Assembly: GCA_016124515.1 (NCBI GenBank)
Contig: WGNN01000013.1
Span: 1-48,668, forward strand
Origin: a bacterium
GTDB lineage: Bacteria > Bacteroidota > Bacteroidia > CAILMK01 > JACPUW01
Reading direction: 5' to 3'
Length of the DNA: 48,668 nucleotides
Notes under the pieces: generated by a model
Told to the model about the DNA's origin: nothing
The model's input: only the letters and a program-made list of their open reading frames with translations
Databases searched by the model: none
Position numbers and translations under genes: made by a program
In this document: positions 8,663-18,284 of the stretch, piece after piece
Position numbering within the stretch: position 1 is the first letter of the stretch
Layout of the letters: every line of letters begins with the position of its first letter

Positions 8663-11600
8663 TTAATTTTTGACAAAACGCAGCACAGAGCTGCCTTCGG
8701 GTGTCATTAGTTTTATGAGGTAGGTTCCTTTAGCCAGGGTTTCAATTTCTATACTGTTATTTTGGCTGTTTACAAGTCCTTTTTGCAGTGTGTTGCCGGG
8801 CAGACCTATTATTTCATACCGCACGGTTTTCGCGCTTGTCACCACAGTCAACCAATTGTTTGCAGGGTTTGGATATATTTCGAAGTGGCTGTCATTATGA
8901 TTGGCAACAGCCAAATCGTCGGTCCAAAGGTTGGTACAAAAGGTGTCGGTACAGGCCCTGTTGTATTCGCTTAGGCAAAGTCGGTGGTCGCCATGGCCAT
9001 TAAATTTTATAGCAAACATTGAATCGCGTACGATGAGTGTCTGCCAAGCGCCATTATCAACTTGGTATTTGAAGGTATAAAATGCGTTTTGTGAGCTATG
9101 TAATCTGAATTCAATTGAGTCATTATCAAATCGTTGGCTTATTTCAGCCGTTACTTTTGGGTGCAGCGCGCCATAAGTTTGCAATTTGCTCATCAAGGTA
9201 TCATTGTACTCGTTGGTACAAGTTCTGGACAATCCGGTTTCCGGGTCAATAAGCCGTTGGCTCACCTTGAGCGATTGGTTGTAAAGACCTTTTTGAGTGA
9301 CGGTAAACTGCAAATTATTACTATTGTCAGTAGTCAACGTGTTGGATGACAGTTGCCAAACCCGCCATTCGTAAAGCCCAGTGTCGCTTTGGTTGATACA
9401 ATTAATTGCGTCACCGAGACAAATCGTGTCGTTGCTGGTTTTTGTAAAGTAGGCTTTAGGCCCCATAAATTCTATCAAATTACTGTCAACGGTGCTTATA
9501 CAGCCCGTTTTGGAAATGGATTCAATTTTGGTTTTTGTAAGGTTATTATTCCTGATAAATAAAACCACCGAACCCGAATCATCTCGCGGAAGGTATTTGT
9601 TGTTAAACTTCAAATCGCTTAAATCATCATAAGTGGTTTCAACTTTATAGGCCAATTCAACATACTCGGGCGGGCACACATATTTTGAATGGTTTACGAG
9701 TGAGAGTGAAACATTTATATCAGGAATTTTTACTTCAATTATGCTTTTTTGCCATACACCTAAACTGTCCATGGTCCACATGGCGCAGGTTTTCAGGCCA
9801 CCTTCGGGGTACACGTGCTGCGGATTGTGAACATCATATAAATCAATTACTCCGTCATTTTCAAAATCCCATGCAATTTGCTCATTTAAAGGCGGTAACT
9901 GGTAGTTTGGATGATTGTTTTTGTGTCTTAGCCTTACTACATTGGGTTGGTAAAAAAAGGCACTTGTATCTATACAAGTTGTATTGTAAAACTCGTTTAA
10001 AAGTTCGCAATAAATAGTTGGGAGCCAGTAATAAACCGAATCGAAAAAAGTAGTTTTACTGCCGGCACAGGCAACTTTTGCTCTTGCAGTAGCCAAATGT
10101 CCGTTAATGATTTCGCGATTCGCACTATTTGTACAACTACTTATTGTACTATTTCTAACGGTAACAAAATATTTTCCGGGATTGAAATTGTAATGGAAAC
10201 TATCCGTCAAATCAGTCAAATTATTTGGCAACAGACCAAAAGTATCCACTTTTATAGAAGTGTCATATACATACCTTCCAGCAGTATTTGCGCTTTTGAC
10301 AATGCGAATTGTTACATCGTTTATGCTGTCTAAGGTTCTTGAAGCGGTATCTTTAAGCGACAATGTATATGACGTTATTTGGTCTATACTGTCAAGTGGG
10401 TGGTAATTTTCGAAATTAAAACTTAATGCGCTGTTGGGTATGTAGATATAATTTTTGTAGAAAAATGTGTCGGTGCTATATGTGTTTTTTACTACCACAC
10501 CAATAGTTTTCCAACCCGGTGCACCGTAAGCCCATTGTCCAGATAATATGGCATCAATAATTTCGCTTTTCGTCCAATTGCAATTCCTGTAAGTGGAGTC
10601 CACAATTTGGCCGAGTCCGTTTTTGATATAAACTTTTTTCTTGCAGTCACTTTCTGCATCAAACAAGAGTTCTACATTGTCGCTGGTGCATGTTTGTTTC
10701 AGGCCTGAATAGTTGATGTAGAGATAGTTTTGGTTATTCGCGTTTAGCATGCAAGGGGTGCCTTCAAGCCTTATTCCCATACCTTCAAGCGGCTTGCCGT
10801 CGGCCAGGGCATTATTTTGTGTATAGTAGTCTATTGATGTGTATAGGTCATGGTCATAGCCGGCATAAGGTTTATTGAAACTAATGATTTGAGTAGTTAT
10901 ATTACTACAGCCGGTAAAGTTGTCGCTTGCTTCCAAAATTACCTCATAACAGTCGTTTTGTGAAAAAGTGTGTGTGGGTGTTTTTTCGGTTGAGTATCGG
11001 CAATGACTATTAGGTGATGTGATGGTTGAAACGCAGGCTGCGGCATAATCGTCGTTAAAATCCCAAAAATAATTCAGGCTGTCGCTCGCCAAAGGGTAAG
11101 ATGGATTTAACCTTTCTTGGTAACCATATGCCGTGGGAAAATCATCATAGTTTACGTGAAGAAGGGTGTTGTTCATTCCCCAAAAAGCCTTGGCCCTGAA
11201 TTTTTGTGAGAAATTAGGAAAAGTAATTTGCAAACTGTCCATATCGCCATTGGCAAAAATGAGTGTATCGTGCAGTTTGTATTTATCTACTCCCAATGAT
11301 GGCAAGCCTGATTCATACATAGGTTGATGTGGAATTTTGTTTCCGCGGTTCCAAACTTGTTTTTCAAGGCGGTAATTTATGGTGTCGGTAGAATAATATG
11401 TCTTACTTCGGTCTAGTAAAGGAAAGCGCAAAACATTGCCATTCAGAGTTGTATCGCCGTTTTTAAAAGTTAAATACTCAGGAAGATATGATGTTGTTTG
11501 GTACACGATTGAAGTGTCGAAAACCCTGATGTAGTAGTTTATCTGTGTAATGTTTGGATCAAAATCGGGGTCATTGTTTAAATGGTTTAAGTATAGTTTG

Positions 11601-12820
11601 TCTATTGTTTTATTATTTGCACCAAGGGTATTTGGATTTATTACAGCTTTTGGGCCTTTTACCGAAACGCAACAATACGTTTGCTTTTGCTGTCCGCAAT
11701 AATCAGAATTGATTTCTAAACTCAATGGATATACGCCCGGGCCGCCTTTGTAAACATGCCAAGGGTTTTCCTCATGTGAAATATTAGAATATTTATCAAC
11801 ATAATCATTAAAATTGAAACTGAAAGAAGTAATGCTCGCCGGTTTGTTCCATTTGAAGTAGAAGGTGTCGTTGTTGCACTCATAATTGCTATTAACTTTA
11901 CTCACATTTAAATTGGGTTTAAATACTACCACATCTTCGGGGCGGGCAAAGGAATCTGAACAACCATTGCTTAACCTTATTGACAATGAAGGGCTGTATT
12001 TTCCATCGTTTGAATAATTGTGGATCACAGTTTGCCAAAGTGAATCATAGTCGCCCTTTTGATAGGTATTTGATGAGCCATCACCCCAATTCCAGGTCCA
12101 TGAAAGTAGTTTTGTGGTATCGAAAGCATTGGTATTATTATAAAAAACCACATTTGCATCATTACCACAACTGTGGTTATTGGCCGTGCCGAAATTGGCA
12201 TTCGCACTGCTCATTGCGGTTATGGCCTGCTGTTTTTCAAAGCTTGAGCTACAGCCAAACTTATCGGTTACAATTAATTGAATATCAAAAGTTCCGGACT
12301 GCTCGTAGGTGTAACAAAAATCGGGTACATTTTTTTGGTTACCATCGCCTGTGTCGTAAAAGTATGAAACTATATCCTGGCCGCTGGCCGCTGCTTCAGA
12401 TGTGCTTTTTATGCAAAATTCATTATTGTTGACGCATTGTATTGAATCTGATGTTATTACAAAGCTGGCCTTTGGATTGTCCAGTATTTCAAGGGCTCTC
12501 GCAGGCGCAATTGAATCTAGGGTAGTGCCTCGGTAAATTTTAAGATAGAAGTCATAAATACCTTTTGATAAAGCTATATTATTGGAGTAGCTGTGCCCGC
12601 TATGTATCCAGTCGTTTGTATTGGAAAGTCGATTTCCATTGGAAAACAATACAGCTGAATCGGGCGAAGTATATGCACCATATCTGTACGTAATTGTAAT
12701 TACTGATCCAACACAACCCTTGTAAGGTAGTTTTTTACCTGAATTGACCATTATGATATCCTGCGAAAAAGCGAAGAGAACGTGTAGTAGTAATAAGATA
12801 GAAACAGCAGCCTTTTTCAT
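8663..12820 (-). CDS. PKD-domain secreted protein with T9SS type A sorting domain
   Basis: 1385 aa; signal MKKAAVSILLLLHVLFAFSQ; several PKD-like patterns (SWTWNWGDGSS, YFWDFNDD, WDFENDGVID); C-terminal FEIYPNPANNWLTV...GTYLIKLMTPEGSSVLRFVKN. Confidence 0.88.
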   Translation of the reverse strand: MKKAAVSILLLLHVLFAFSQDIIMVNSGKKLPYKGCVGSVITITYRYGAYTSPDSAVLFSNGNRLSNTNDWIHSGHSYSNNIALSKGIYDFYLKIYRGTTLDSIAPARALEILDNPKASFVITSDSIQCVNNNEFCIKSTSEAAASGQDIVSYFYDTGDGNQKNVPDFCYTYEQSGTFDIQLIVTDKFGCSSSFEKQQAITAMSSANANFGTANNHSCGNDANVVFYNNTNAFDTTKLLSWTWNWGDGSSNTYQKGDYDSLWQTVIHNYSNDGKYSPSLSIRLSNGCSDSFARPEDVVVFKPNLNVSKVNSNYECNNDTFYFKWNKPASITSFSFNFNDYVDKYSNISHEENPWHVYKGGPGVYPLSLEINSDYCGQQKQTYCCVSVKGPKAVINPNTLGANNKTIDKLYLNHLNNDPDFDPNITQINYYIRVFDTSIVYQTTSYLPEYLTFKNGDTTLNGNVLRFPLLDRSKTYYSTDTINYRLEKQVWNRGNKIPHQPMYESGLPSLGVDKYKLHDTLIFANGDMDSLQITFPNFSQKFRAKAFWGMNNTLLHVNYDDFPTAYGYQERLNPSYPLASDSLNYFWDFNDDYAAACVSTITSPNSHCRYSTEKTPTHTFSQNDCYEVILEASDNFTGCSNITTQIISFNKPYAGYDHDLYTSIDYYTQNNALADGKPLEGMGIRLEGTPCMLNANNQNYLYINYSGLKQTCTSDNVELLFDAESDCKKKVYIKNGLGQIVDSTYRNCNWTKSEIIDAILSGQWAYGAPGWKTIGVVVKNTYSTDTFFYKNYIYIPNSALSFNFENYHPLDSIDQITSYTLSLKDTASRTLDSINDVTIRIVKSANTAGRYVYDTSIKVDTFGLLPNNLTDLTDSFHYNFNPGKYFVTVRNSTISSCTNSANREIINGHLATARAKVACAGSKTTFFDSVYYWLPTIYCELLNEFYNTTCIDTSAFFYQPNVVRLRHKNNHPNYQLPPLNEQIAWDFENDGVIDLYDVHNPQHVYPEGGLKTCAMWTMDSLGVWQKSIIEVKIPDINVSLSLVNHSKYVCPPEYVELAYKVETTYDDLSDLKFNNKYLPRDDSGSVVLFIRNNNLTKTKIESISKTGCISTVDSNLIEFMGPKAYFTKTSNDTICLGDAINCINQSDTGLYEWRVWQLSSNTLTTDNSNNLQFTVTQKGLYNQSLKVSQRLIDPETGLSRTCTNEYNDTLMSKLQTYGALHPKVTAEISQRFDNDSIEFRLHSSQNAFYTFKYQVDNGAWQTLIVRDSMFAIKFNGHGDHRLCLSEYNRACTDTFCTNLWTDDLAVANHNDSHFEIYPNPANNWLTVVTSAKTVRYEIIGLPGNTLQKGLVNSQNNSIEIETLAKGTYLIKLMTPEGSSVLRFVKN

Positions 12821-12885: not shown

Positions 12886-14430
12886 TCAATATAAATCCCA
12901 ATTGCCTTTGTTGTAGTAGCGGTAGAGTACGGGGTTTTGCAAGGTATTTACTTCAATATCAGTGGTATCGGCCAGCGGTTTGCCAAATGAAAAAATATGG
13001 TCGATGGCTGTTGGGCTAAACCATTTGGTGGGTATATCAAAAGCCTTACTGTTTGTTTTTATTCTTTGCACCAAAGCATCGCCGGCCAGTTGTTTGCTGC
13101 CCATTATCCAGCCCCATTGCCCCATGGTAAGTACTTGGTTGTGAAGCGCTGTGGTTTTGAGACCAGCACGCTGCATGGTTTTTTCTATACAATAAAATGC
13201 CTTGGTGGCATAATAGGGGCTTCCCGCTTGTGTTATCATTACGCCATTGCTGCTCAGGTGTTTGCGCGCTATGGTATAGAACTCGCGGCTGTAGAGCATA
13301 CCCAGTTCTATAGTTTTTGGGTCGGGCAGGTCTATTATTATCGCATCATAAAATTCACTTGATTGCTCAAGAAATTTCTTGCCGTCATCATTTATCAAAT
13401 GAACTTTTTCGTTCCAAAAAGCACTGTCATTCAGTTGGGTAAAAATAGGGTTTTCCATTGCCAGTCGCGTCATTTCAGGGTCCAGGTCAACCAGTGTTAT
13501 CTTTTCTATTTCATTGAACTTGAGCAATTCGCGCACGGCACATCCATCGCCGCCACCTATTACCAATACGTTTTGTGCATGGCTTAGCAACATAATGGGT
13601 ATTACCAAAGGTTCGTGGTACAGGTATTCGTCTAGTGTGCTCAATTGTTGGTTGTGGTTTATATACAGCCAATAATTATTTTCCCACTGCGTGAGGGTTA
13701 TTTTCTGGTATTTGGTTTGTTTGTCATATACTATTTTGTCTTTGTAGCGCACTTGATCGCCCCATAATGTTATTTTTGGGGTTCCTGCAAAAGCAATTAT
13801 GAGCAAGAGCGCAGCCAACATTATAGATGGGAGCACAAACAGCTTTTTTATCTTCGCATCCACCAAATTGCGCAGCTTGAAAAACATGAGTGTGGCCACC
13901 GACAAATTGAGCAAGGCAAGGGCCAGCGGTGTGTAGGTAAACCCCAAATATGGCAGGCCAATGAATGCGAAAAAAACGCCTCCAAGCAGCGAACCATAAT
14001 AATCTTTTTCAAGAATGGAAGATATATTGGTTTTGAGATTTTGGTAGCTGTTGTTGATGCGGGTTACCAAAGGAATTTCGAGCCCTATGAGCAATCCAAT
14101 TGCAATGGAAAGGACATAAATAAGCAAACCCTCATAATAGGAGAGGGCGGCCAAGGAATACACAGCGATGGCCGATAAACCCACCAGTAGACTCAATACA
14201 ACTTCGGTAATGATAAAAGTGGCTATCAGGTGTTTTTCAAACCTGCGGCTGAGGCGGCTGCCCACACCCATTGAAAACAGCATGACAGATATAATCAATG
14301 TCCACTGAATGAGTTGGTTGCCAAGGAAATACGTGGCCATGGTAGCCAGCACATACTCAGCTACAATGCCCGAAATGCCGGTTACAAAAATGGATAATTT
14401 AAGTACGCCGCTATTGCTCAGTTTTAGCAT
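12886..14430 (-). CDS. Membrane-anchored spermidine synthase-like (polyamine aminopropyltransferase-like) protein
   Basis: Multi-TM N-terminus; GGGDGCAVRELLKF, LVDLDPEMTRLA, DDGKKFLEQ, YDAIIIDLPDP, LYSREFY motifs. Confidence 0.88.
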   Translation of the reverse strand: MLKLSNSGVLKLSIFVTGISGIVAEYVLATMATYFLGNQLIQWTLIISVMLFSMGVGSRLSRRFEKHLIATFIITEVVLSLLVGLSAIAVYSLAALSYYEGLLIYVLSIAIGLLIGLEIPLVTRINNSYQNLKTNISSILEKDYYGSLLGGVFFAFIGLPYLGFTYTPLALALLNLSVATLMFFKLRNLVDAKIKKLFVLPSIMLAALLLIIAFAGTPKITLWGDQVRYKDKIVYDKQTKYQKITLTQWENNYWLYINHNQQLSTLDEYLYHEPLVIPIMLLSHAQNVLVIGGGDGCAVRELLKFNEIEKITLVDLDPEMTRLAMENPIFTQLNDSAFWNEKVHLINDDGKKFLEQSSEFYDAIIIDLPDPKTIELGMLYSREFYTIARKHLSSNGVMITQAGSPYYATKAFYCIEKTMQRAGLKTTALHNQVLTMGQWGWIMGSKQLAGDALVQRIKTNSKAFDIPTKWFSPTAIDHIFSFGKPLADTTDIEVNTLQNPVLYRYYNKGNWDLY

Positions 14431-14442
14431 AAAAATAAATGC

Positions 14443-15288
14443 CTAAAGGGTCCAGCTGATAAGCACCGCGCCGCCAATGTAGGCAAATGCTTCAATAAGT
14501 GCAGCACCCACATTGGGCTGTTCCTGATTCACAATCTCGTCGGTGAGGTTTCTTCCGGGCAGCAATATTTTATCGGTGAGAAAACGTGCTATGGGAAGAA
14601 AAATAAATCCAATCGTGCAGTCAATCAATACATTTAGTGCTTGTGTTTGCCAACCACCTTCGTCATTGGCAAGGCCGGTTTCTACCAAAATGGCCACCGC
14701 TACCAGTGCACCTGCAAAGCCCACACCCACAGCTACATTATCTTTTTCTATTTGGTCGTGAATATTGTAGGGGGTAATAAAATTGTAAACCCAGGCGGCT
14801 ATCATAAAAAGTAGTTGGCCGGCCAGCCAGTAAAACACTGCTGAAAGTATGCCGCCATATTCGCCAATAATGGCACCATAAACAATAATGCCGGTAGCCA
14901 AATAGTTGGCTGCTTCAATAACTCCCGCCCCTATATTTCGGTCGGTTATTATTTCTTTTTTCATGGCAAATCGGTTGAAAATAAGTTTGTCGTTGATGAT
15001 AGCCGACAAATTGAGCAAGATAATTGCCAACAAGCCGTAAATGCCAATGTCAATGATATCGTTGAGCATGCCGTGCGAGGGGCCTATTATGCTACCGCTA
15101 ATGGCTGTAATAATACCTGCATAATAACCCACCATTGAAATGGCAAATGCCGTATTATCGTCTTCAACCAGTGTGTGGCCTATTTTTATTTGCGGATTAA
15201 TGAGTTTGTAAGCCGCTTTGCCTGCCAAAAACAAAAGAAAGGCTTCTGCCAGGTAGGTTGCGGTATTTAATGCGTCTATTAAATTCAT
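14443..15288 (-). CDS. DUF350 family membrane protein with two repeats
   Basis: 281 aa, highly hydrophobic; duplicated EDDNTAFAISMVGYYAGI / EKDNVAVGVGFAGALVAV and NIGAGVIEAANYLATG / NVGAALIEAFAYIGGA. Confidence 0.82.
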   Translation of the reverse strand: MNLIDALNTATYLAEAFLLFLAGKAAYKLINPQIKIGHTLVEDDNTAFAISMVGYYAGIITAISGSIIGPSHGMLNDIIDIGIYGLLAIILLNLSAIINDKLIFNRFAMKKEIITDRNIGAGVIEAANYLATGIIVYGAIIGEYGGILSAVFYWLAGQLLFMIAAWVYNFITPYNIHDQIEKDNVAVGVGFAGALVAVAILVETGLANDEGGWQTQALNVLIDCTIGFIFLPIARFLTDKILLPGRNLTDEIVNQEQPNVGAALIEAFAYIGGAVLISWTL

Positions 15289-15296
15289 TGCTTATT

Positions 15297-16586
15297 TTAT
15301 TTACCAAATCCACCACCTCTCGATCTATAACTACCGCCTCTGTAGCGCGAACTTGAACGTGATCTGCGTTGGGTTGAAAAATTATTTTTTTGTTGCCTTC
15401 TTGTATAAAAATCGGGGCGGCGTTGCTTGGTGTAGCTGCTGTTGGTTCCGTAGTAGTAGCCACCGCCCATTGATGGGCCGTAGTAAGACCTTCGGCCATA
15501 ATAGTCGTTGTAATAGCTGCCGTAATAGCTGCGGTAAACAGGCCGCGTGGCCAAATCGAAAATGCTCGAAAAAAACATGTATTTGCCATAAAACGACCAG
15601 AAGGATTCGCCGCGCTCGTTGGTTTTCCACTCGCCGTATTGCTCATTGCCCACATAAGCACCCCAGCCCGGCGGCGACACGGTTTTGTTTATTTTTCCAT
15701 CTTTCTTCGATACCAATTCCATTCCCAGGTTATTTTCATTTTCCTTGAAATAGTCTTCGCTCACTTCCAGCCAATCGGTGTAGGTAGAGGTGGGTTCCGC
15801 ATCCGCCGTGGCAGATGATACCACAAGGTATTTGTGCAGGTATTCGTAAGACCAACCGCTTTCATTCACATCCATATCATATAGTATGATGGAGAAACTC
15901 TCGTTGGGCATCAATTGCTGCGTGAGTTCGTCAACCGGTTTTTTGTGGTAAGCGCTTTGGCTGTTTCCGCAGCGGGCCAGGCCAAAAAACACAAATACCA
16001 AACCTATGAGCAACAGCCACATAAAGTTGCGGCTTTTCTTTTTCCTTTCGTCGTAGTCGCGCGGGGCGCGTTTGGGTTGTCCATCGCGGGGCAATATGTT
16101 TGATATTTCAAACTCGCGCAGCACCTTGCCGGTTGCGGCTTCAAATTCTTCTTCGTCCCAGCGCTCTATGCTCAGCAATTTTTGACCACTGTGGTCTTTG
16201 TAGTCCCAGTTTATGAATTTTTGCCAGTTTGAGCTGCGCGTATTGCGCCAATAGCCCAGGGCTTCTTCTTGCCTTGCATAAGTTACGCCACCCAACGAAA
16301 CTTCGCGCGGTGGCTCATCGTGTTGCATGATAAAGCTTGGCAAATTGCGGTCTATTCCAAGCACATTCACTTTGCGCCAAATCGAAATTTCCACCTCATC
16401 GTCCACTTCCACGCTCAGAAAGGCGGTTTCGTTTCCGCTGTCTATCTTGTATTCCTTGGTGTAAAAACTATTGCCCCAGTCGTATTCGTATTCTTCGGTT
16501 ACCTCCCAGGTTTGCAAATCATAGTCAAACAAAAAACCCAAAGCAAGGTCAGTAACACGTATTCTCGTACTGTCGTATTGACTCAT
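15297..16586 (-). CDS. DUF4178-like protein with one TM segment and Tyr/Gly/Ser/Arg-rich tail
   Basis: FDYDLQTWEVTEEYEYDWGNSFYTKEYKI... and LLSIERWDEEEFEAATGKVLREFEISNILP; TM FMWLLLIGLVFVFFGLA; tail RSRSSSRYRGGSYRSRGGGFGK. Confidence 0.75.
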   Translation of the reverse strand: MSQYDSTRIRVTDLALGFLFDYDLQTWEVTEEYEYDWGNSFYTKEYKIDSGNETAFLSVEVDDEVEISIWRKVNVLGIDRNLPSFIMQHDEPPREVSLGGVTYARQEEALGYWRNTRSSNWQKFINWDYKDHSGQKLLSIERWDEEEFEAATGKVLREFEISNILPRDGQPKRAPRDYDERKKKSRNFMWLLLIGLVFVFFGLARCGNSQSAYHKKPVDELTQQLMPNESFSIILYDMDVNESGWSYEYLHKYLVVSSATADAEPTSTYTDWLEVSEDYFKENENNLGMELVSKKDGKINKTVSPPGWGAYVGNEQYGEWKTNERGESFWSFYGKYMFFSSIFDLATRPVYRSYYGSYYNDYYGRRSYYGPSMGGGYYYGTNSSYTKQRRPDFYTRRQQKNNFSTQRRSRSSSRYRGGSYRSRGGGFGK

Positions 16587-16614: not shown

Positions 16615-16775
16615 AAAGAATAGGTGTGGGCAGCCCAATAAATCGTAAGAACGGTTAATGTGTGTGTTAACCTGTTTTTTTGGCTTGTTTTTTGTCAAGT
16701 GCCCGGCCTTTGTTCATAAAATTATTGCAAAACCTATTGATAAAACAAAATATAAATGGCATCTTACTCTTTCAA

Positions 16776-18284
16776 ATGGCAAGAGATTTAAAGTATAAGA
16801 GGTCAATTTTTGGTACAAAAACCGCCACTGTTCTTCTATATTCAGCCTTTTTGCTGTTGGTATCCTGTGGCCGATCTTCTACCCATCAGGCAAGTCAACT
16901 CGAAACGCCGGTAAACCCGGTTCACCGCGATTTAGATGAAATAACCAAAGATGGAAAGCTTACCGTGCTTATGGGAAACAGTTCATCGAGCTACTTTATT
17001 TACCGTGGCAGGCCTATGGGTTTTGAGTTTGAGCTGCTCGAATTGTTTGCCCGCGAAAACAACCTTGAATTGGAAGTGGTAATTCCCGACGATTTGAATG
17101 ACGTGTTTGATTTGCTCAACGAAGGCAAGGGCGATATAGTGGCGGCAGGCCTTACAGTTACCAAAGAGCGCGCAAAGGAGGTGGCTTTTACCGACTATTT
17201 AATGACCACAAGGCAGGTATTGGTTCAACGAAAACCGGCAGGTTGGGAAACCATGACATGGGACGCCATCAGACGTCAACTGCTTAGAAGTCAGCTAAGT
17301 TTGATTGGAAAGGAAGTTTACGTTCGCAAAAATTCCTCATACTACAGCCGCCTGCAAAACCTGAGCGACGAAATAGGCGGCGATATACATATTGTAACTG
17401 TAAGCGGCGATGTGGAAACCGAAGAATTGATAAGGCGTGTGGCGGTGGGCGACATTGACTATACCGTGGCCGACGAACATATTGCCCAATTGAATGCCAC
17501 TTACTACGCCAATCTCGATGTGGGCACGCCCATTAGTTTTCCACAACAACTGGCCTGGGCGGTGCGCCAAAATTCACCTGAACTAAAAACCATGCTCAAT
17601 GACTGGATTGTAGCCGCAAGAAAAAAACGCGACTACAACCATTTGGTAATGAAATACTACAAAAATCAAAAAGCCTATCTGCTTCGTTCGGCCAGCGGGT
17701 TTCATTCGCAATACGGAGGTAGAATTTCTATCTATGACGAAGCGTTTAAAAAACATGCCACCGAGGCGGGTTGGGATTGGCGCCTCATTGCCTCAGTTGC
17801 CTATCAAGAATCAAAATTCAACAACGAGTTGGAATCGTGGGCGGGTGCGCGCGGGCTAATGCAACTCCTGCCCGAAACCGCTAGACGATTTGGTGGAGAT
17901 TCTATAATGACCGCCGAACAAAGTATTGTGGTGGGTATAAACTACCTCAACTACCTCAATAAATTCTGGCTGCGCGAAATACCCGACTCTGCCACTCGAT
18001 TGCCCTTTGTGCTCGCCTCTTACAATGCCGGTATTGGGCACGTGGTTGATGCACAGCGCCTTGCGGCAAAGTATTATAATGATAAATTCAATTGGAAAAT
18101 AGTATCGTATTTTTTGCTCAATAAAAACCAACGGCGCTTTTACAGCGACAATGTGGTAAAACATGGTTATTGTCGTGGGGCGGAACCTGTAAAATATGTG
18201 AGCGAGATAATTAACCGCTTTGAACAATACAAAAAACTAATACCCGTGGGCATAGAACCCAACGATTTGGTGGCTAGTAGATAA
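16776..18284 (+). CDS. mltF: Membrane-bound lytic transglycosylase MltF-like (SBP_bac_3 plus SLT domains)
   Basis: Lipobox LLLVSCG; solute-binding region (GDIVAAGLTVTKERAKEVAFTDYLMTTRQVLVQRK); SLT motif SVAYQESKFNNELESWAGARGLMQLLPETARRFG; ATG 16776 preferred to 16680. Confidence 0.85.
   Translation: MARDLKYKRSIFGTKTATVLLYSAFLLLVSCGRSSTHQASQLETPVNPVHRDLDEITKDGKLTVLMGNSSSSYFIYRGRPMGFEFELLELFARENNLELEVVIPDDLNDVFDLLNEGKGDIVAAGLTVTKERAKEVAFTDYLMTTRQVLVQRKPAGWETMTWDAIRRQLLRSQLSLIGKEVYVRKNSSYYSRLQNLSDEIGGDIHIVTVSGDVETEELIRRVAVGDIDYTVADEHIAQLNATYYANLDVGTPISFPQQLAWAVRQNSPELKTMLNDWIVAARKKRDYNHLVMKYYKNQKAYLLRSASGFHSQYGGRISIYDEAFKKHATEAGWDWRLIASVAYQESKFNNELESWAGARGLMQLLPETARRFGGDSIMTAEQSIVVGINYLNYLNKFWLREIPDSATRLPFVLASYNAGIGHVVDAQRLAAKYYNDKFNWKIVSYFLLNKNQRRFYSDNVVKHGYCRGAEPVKYVSEIINRFEQYKKLIPVGIEPNDLVASR

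Follow-up and report, generated by a model that had tools for sequence, protein, structure and literature searches.

Relatives of a bacterial enzyme in which a membrane unit precedes a spermidine synthase (SpdSyn)-like domain reportedly could not rescue E. coli lacking speE, and Li and colleagues are said to have described an "AdoMetDC - MFS/SpdSyn" cluster (AdoMetDC, S-adenosylmethionine (AdoMet) decarboxylase). Experiments are stated to have shown that bacterial membrane-aminopropyltransferase (APT) fusions take no part in making spermidine or spermine (PMC12803844, with reference to Li et al. 2019); the expressed fungal domain was not a spermidine/spermine synthase either, and one report of lower spermine after deletion of a fungal homologue is discussed in the same paper. 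In a PspA/CesT operon, a fusion of seven transmembrane (TM) segments to spermidine synthase is encoded together with a YjfL-family DUF350 protein, a lipoprotein (Ctha_1186) and DUF4178, and such systems were proposed to monitor polyamine concentration or the aminopropylation of other substrates (Ravi et al., mSystems 2024, PMC11237479, citing Li et al. 2019). Here we describe a related three-gene cluster in a 48,668-nucleotide stretch ("the window") of contig WGNN01000013.1 from a Bacteroidota bacterium (GCA_016124515.1), encoding a DUF4178-lipoprotein fusion, a duplicated DUF350 membrane protein and a membrane SpdSyn-like fusion enzyme.

Since the association has already been published (Ravi et al. 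2024; Li et al. 2019), this is not a new system; rather, the cluster is a reduced variant of a described one, which probably aminopropylates an envelope component rather than making ordinary spermidine. Sequence comparison adds to the published work a predicted outward-facing enzyme, a conserved Gly-Lys tail, the DUF4178-lipoprotein fusion, statistics on speD (the AdoMet decarboxylase gene) and the apparent loss of acceptor-side residues. Many bacteria encode AdoMet decarboxylase along with the membrane enzyme, for which no part in polyamine metabolism is known.

Active site of the fusion enzyme and its supply of decarboxylated AdoMet

The C-terminal half of the 514-aa enzyme matched Spermine_synth in Pfam (PF01564, E = 4e-33), and in NCBIfam the protein exceeded the cut-offs of both NF002956/PRK03612 "polyamine aminopropyltransferase" (542 bits vs 472) and NF037959 "fused MFS/spermidine synthase" (45.8 bits vs 40). 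In its AlphaFold model (mean predicted local distance difference test score, pLDDT, of 80) the same half adopted the SpdSyn fold, matching 1uir and 3anx at E of about 1e-17. When 38 fusions were aligned with 13 canonical SpdSyn, the donor and catalytic residues Q242, D267, E268, Y271, H272, E273, D349, D367 and D370 (counted from the ATG at 14430) were conserved in all 38 fusions and D295 in 36. On the other hand, the Tyr of the PTYP motif and the Glu two residues past the conserved Gln (QxE) were absent from every fusion (38/38) and present in every canonical enzyme (13/13). We take these two to be acceptor-side positions, from general knowledge of SpdSyn structures; in the alignments the QxE Glu was also missing from broad-acceptor enzymes. 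Judged by these residues, the acceptor pocket is altered while the donor site is intact.

Presence of the fusion enzyme was tightly associated with that of speD. Among 297 Bacteroidota genomes, the enzyme scored over cut-off in 22 and speD was found in 61: all 22 fusion-bearing genomes carried speD, against 39 of the 275 others (p = 2e-17, an optimistic value because the sample is weighted towards close relatives; the 22 genomes span many genera). In 18 of the 22, the single speD lay within 3.5 kb of the fusion gene, and these genomes had no strong soluble SpdSyn match. In the other four, including the genome of the window, the single speD was located elsewhere, in an open frame of 366-451 aa that also encodes a soluble SpdSyn. 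The initial annotation had correctly placed AdoMet decarboxylase outside the window: the only speD found (PF02675, 1.7e-43) is on a different contig (C131), fused to a canonical SpdSyn (AdoMet_dc, tetramerisation and Spermine_synth domains). A second synthase, which that annotation had considered, is thus encoded, and therefore the window enzyme is not the sole spermidine synthase of the genome. Moreover, with no separate speD beside the cluster, decarboxylated AdoMet (dcSAM) must come from the SpeD-SpdSyn fusion.

The lipoprotein partner and its conserved tail

The 429-aa protein had been annotated as DUF4178-like with one TM segment; the DUF4178 domain was recovered (PF13785, E = 1.8e-22, residues 16-157), while the fusion with a lipoprotein had been missed. 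The counterpart of residues 190-429 is a separate gene, directly 3' of a short DUF4178 gene, in Flammeovirga, Olleya, Bizionia and one genome of the Cytophagales, and the separate copies bear lipobox cysteines (e.g., LISC, LAGC and VTAC). In the window protein and two relatives (G001 and G002), what was once the signal peptide is now an internal TM segment, with the Cys retained and preceded by Arg (LARC, ATRC and MMRC). As an Arg ahead of the Cys departs from the usual lipobox, cleavage is doubtful in the fused forms. The gene fusion itself argues that DUF4178 and the outer-face domain function as a single membrane-spanning unit. The lipoprotein half was also considered as a second DUF4178 and rejected (independent E-value of 190 for the second domain match).

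Arg, Ser and Gly abound in the lipoprotein tail, which in 18 of 18 homologues ends in GK with R.R upstream, a feature shared by only five of 464 other complete proteins from the same loci. The profile of the lipoprotein domain was found in six of the 297 genomes, all six with the fusion enzyme. The domain was modelled with a well-defined core (pLDDT about 90) and a disordered tail; no relative was found in Pfam, and a structure search of the model against the PDB returned nothing below E = 0.1. The strictly conserved Gly-Lys tail offers a concrete peptide for mass spectrometry. A distant lipoprotein ending FRNRGPSSGK is encoded in a similar cluster of a gammaproteobacterium, on the Alteromonas mediterranea plasmid pAMCP48-600 (L089:6947-13605): the fusion, speD, a TelA-type toxic anion resistance gene, DUF4178, the lipoprotein ending SSGK, and DUF350.

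Predicted topology and proposed mechanism

The orientation of the fusion enzyme was predicted from charge distribution and helix number. Lys and Arg numbered 6-15 on the N-side loops and 0-1 on the opposite loops in all 38 fusions. Long Bacteroidota relatives (L092-L097, 1025-1071 aa) carry two copies of a six-TM unit plus one extra TM segment before the synthase domain (one helix being just under threshold in two of the six), a full-length MFS-like architecture; helix number is thus odd in both forms, i.e., seven, or 13 in the duplicated-unit relatives. Insertion-energy (dG) estimates for the window enzyme and the long relatives were based on approximate scale values. With a predicted cytosolic N-terminus and an odd number of crossings, the synthase-like domain appears to sit outside the cytoplasm. 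The exported partners agree with such a placement: besides the lipoproteins, partner FAD amine oxidases bear a twin-Arg or Arg-Lys leader of the twin-arginine translocation type, with a Cys at the leader end in 11 of 12, and leaders of similar kind were found in Novosphingobium and Gemmatirosa. Mean Cys content of the APT domain (2.0 in Bacteroidota fusions vs 2.6 in canonical enzymes) would fit an oxidising compartment, though too faintly to serve as evidence, as would the 0-2 Cys of plasmid-borne proteobacterial and gemmatimonad homologues. Acidic residues within or at the edge of the membrane helices (E25, E76, E118 and D143) were conserved among the 38 homologues, compatible with passage of a cation but also with structural MFS motifs.

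Our best reading, to which we assign a probability of roughly 0.45, is dcSAM-dependent, export-coupled aminopropylation of an envelope amine. Gene content, co-occurrence and residue conservation are computed results, from which, together with the sequences, we infer an outward topology and dcSAM export: dcSAM would be made in the cytosol by SpeD (here, SpeD fused to an ordinary spermidine synthase), the MFS-like membrane unit would carry this cationic donor through the inner membrane, and at the outer face the APT-like domain would transfer the donor's aminopropyl group to an envelope amine instead of putrescine. As guesses, the acceptor would most likely be the Arg/Lys-rich tail of the partner lipoprotein or a phospholipid head group, DUF350 would serve alongside the enzyme as a membrane channel or transporter, and the protein that joins DUF4178 to the lipoprotein would link a cytosolic module (elsewhere beside PspA/CesT) to the outer-face domain. 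In its most specific form, with exported dcSAM used to aminopropylate the Gly-Lys-ending lipoprotein tail as a silaffin-like cationic envelope modification, the proposal is distinctly improbable. If the catalytic domain does face outward, the acceptor would have to be sought among lipids and lipoproteins of the envelope, no longer among cytosolic polyamines, and a dcSAM exporter is predicted; we know of no such transport activity.

Several lines of evidence weigh against export-coupled aminopropylation: i) In the AlphaFold model, built on 14 sequences, residues 135-188, where TM5 and TM6 are expected, form a single helix (pLDDT about 55-77); the number of helices would then be even and the domain inside, although the charged residues often held by the TM5-TM6 turns of the long relatives support two separate helices; ii) The membrane-unit profile had no match in the PDB and hence no relative of solved structure, and the MFS signal was weak, with a Pfam MFS match in just one of 22 members; iii) Operons of the amine-oxidase type lack the lipoprotein, which therefore cannot be a universal acceptor; iv) The genome of the window (3.8 Mb, 156 contigs) is only 82% complete; v) The papers searched yielded no extracytoplasmic use of dcSAM. 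Among these papers, which did not include subscription ones such as that of Li et al., none placed the synthase domain outside.

Alternatively, the same non-canonical aminopropyltransferase could keep its APT-like domain in the cytosol, membrane-anchored and acting on an inner-leaflet lipid head group or on some unusual amine that the membrane unit supplies. Such an enzyme would share the cytosol with dcSAM and SpeD, would suit the merged TM5-TM6 helix and is in line with the intact donor and catalytic residues; however, the positive-inside pattern of all 38 fusions over seven hydrophobic segments, the 12+1 helices of the long relatives (again an odd number of crossings) and the export of amine oxidases and lipoproteins render it somewhat unlikely. 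It is also conceivable that the APT-like domain is mainly a sensor of dcSAM, polyamine or methylthioadenosine, conveying the condition of the envelope or of the polyamine pool to DUF4178, DUF350 and PspA/CesT with little catalysis, as PspA/CesT neighbours at three loci and the published monitoring proposal (PMC11237479) would suggest; yet retention of the donor site and both catalytic aspartates in 38/38, together with the amine oxidase that often follows the fusion gene and suggests turnover of a product, makes this improbable. An ordinary, merely membrane-anchored spermidine synthase, as the above-cut-off NF002956 name, the intact donor site and the fungal spermine phenotype (PMC12803844) would have it, is very unlikely given the canonical SpeD-SpdSyn elsewhere in the genome, the loss of acceptor-side Tyr and Glu from all 38 fusions and the failure of bacterial fusions and the expressed fungal domain to act as spermidine/spermine synthases (PMC12803844).

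The initial annotation had proposed an envelope-associated system distinct from routine spermidine synthesis. All the evidence obtained agrees with this view: the separate SpeD-SpdSyn, the altered acceptor pocket, the co-occurrence with speD and the exported or PspA/CesT partners. It is supported only in part, however, since its suggestion that a polyamine-like group may be attached found no direct support; moreover, the association and the exclusion from polyamine synthesis were already in print, and the predicted outward-facing enzyme domain had been overlooked. None of the three outcomes it had named as fatal (no profile support, no conserved neighbourhood, or this enzyme as the only spermidine synthase, with ordinary activity) was found.

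Gene layout, partner genes and relation to known systems

The three open reading frames lie on the minus strand, separated by 8 bp (15289-15296) and 12 bp (14431-14442), just as first described, and the expected families were all supported by profiles, including two copies of DUF350 (PF03994, E = 4.2e-55; 14449-14853 and 14869-15276 in a profile search of the genome assembly). Neither DUF350 nor DUF4178 has a second locus anywhere else in that assembly. The genes do recur together as had been stated: their order is retained in one genome of the same genus and one of the same family (L016 and L017), so the cluster is not a chance one, and variants occur elsewhere. Promoter and terminator scans revealed nothing clearly exceeding shuffled expectation, and no relative was found in the viral contigs searched.

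Table 1. Coordinates of the cluster and its parts in the window.
Feature	Position	Strand	Basis or remark
Membrane spermidine-synthase-like fusion protein, 514 aa	12886..14430	-	7-TM MFS-like half unit + APT-like domain
APT-like domain, residues about 230-514, predicted extracytoplasmic	12889..13743	-	GGGDG (D295), D349 and catalytic pair D367/D370 kept
Membrane unit, residues 1-216, seven predicted TM segments	13783..14430	-	hydropathy and conservation, 38 homologues; dG estimates
Duplicated DUF350 membrane protein, 281 aa	14443..15288	-	two PF03994 stretches
DUF4178-lipoprotein fusion protein, 429 aa	15297..16586	-	halves are separate genes in relatives; fused in G001 and G002
Conserved C-terminal tail ...SYRSRGGGFGK	15300..15341	-	tail comparison across homologues
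Predicted extracytoplasmic lipoprotein-like domain, R/S/G-rich tail	15300..15968	-	profile; structure model
Single TM segment (residues 188-204), then Cys206 (LARC)	15969..16025	-	remnant of partner lipoprotein's signal peptide and lipobox
DUF4178 domain, predicted cytosolic	16116..16541	-	profile match 5.1e-23

Adjoining the cluster is a divergent MltF-like gene (16680-18284, plus strand; SBP_bac_3 and SLT transglycosylase), which is kept in G001 and G002. Directly downstream of the fusion-enzyme gene, a repeat protein of 1385 aa that looks secreted and ends in a sorting-type tail (8663-12820, minus strand) had no relative in the other loci compared. The defence protein mad2 (MADS, PADLOC) was rejected as an identity for the fusion enzyme, the match being confined to residues 283-425, the Rossmann-fold part, and not full-length.

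Bacteroidota loci can be classified into four layouts: i) Layout A, [CesT-PspA]-DUF4178-lipoprotein-DUF350x2-fusion (L034, L083 and L084), which the window shares without CesT-PspA; ii) Layout B, speD-K+ channel-DUF4178-lipoprotein-fusion (Olleya, Bizionia and G124); iii) Layout C, speD-tandem DUF4178-short DUF350-fusion-FAD amine oxidase-unknown His-rich membrane protein, with a similar arrangement on a Novosphingobium plasmid; iv) Layout D, speD divergent from the fusion gene. In layout B a voltage-gated-type potassium channel (Ion_trans, 4.6e-36; L028:5938-6738, L026:412-1209 and L085) takes the place of DUF350, a substitution hinting that the role of DUF350 may be ion-channel-like. The His-rich protein that follows the amine oxidase in layout C (L068:5347-6372, minus; L065:11145-12203, plus; L018:9364-10467, plus) has six TM segments, about 340 aa and the motifs DVAHVYxTL, HFxRQQYGFMRLY, ISHGxPYMALI and THYxLDGFIWK, with no match in Pfam or NCBIfam.

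Compared with known systems, the window enzyme shares fold and donor/catalytic residues with the canonical spermidine synthase SpeE, a soluble cytosolic protein, but has a membrane unit in front, changed acceptor-side residues and a predicted outside location. E. coli yjfIJKLMC (and ygiBC) offers a parallel: a CesT-like protein, PspA, DUF350, a TM/lipobox protein with a cationic Arg/Ser/Gly-rich tail (YjfM/YgiB) and a polyamine-attaching enzyme. That enzyme, however, is an ATP-grasp ligase and not an aminopropyltransferase (YjfC and YgiC are named peptide--spermidine ligases in RefSeq; Pederick et al. 2023, as cited in PMC12270671), and DUF1190 and DUF2491 replace the lipoprotein and DUF4178. 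With the AdoMetDC - MFS/SpdSyn cluster, the window has in common an MFS-type membrane unit fused to a SpdSyn-like domain, linkage to DUF350 and co-occurrence with speD, yet its speD is in the genome and not beside the fusion gene. With the PspA/CesT-linked operon it shares the SpdSyn-like domain fused to an N-terminal 7TM unit, the 8-TM duplicated DUF350 and DUF4178; judged by position, the lipoprotein half may correspond to the Ctha_1186 domain. Locus L034, from Cytophagales, and those of G102 and G220 retain the full CesT-PspA-DUF4178-lipoprotein-DUF350-fusion order of that operon (PMC11237479). In the genome of the window, the CesT/Tir-PspA dyad (PF22550, 8e-54; PF04012, 2e-39) is on another contig (C89), next to genes for a protein of 714 aa that looks like band-7/flotillin and for a membrane protein of 224 aa (L087:1291-5330, minus strand), a locus similar to the first group of PspA/CesT operons in PMC11237479. 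Thus, with the dyad outside the operon, and with DUF4178 and the lipoprotein fused into one protein, the window cluster is best filed as a variant of the PspA/CesT-linked system.

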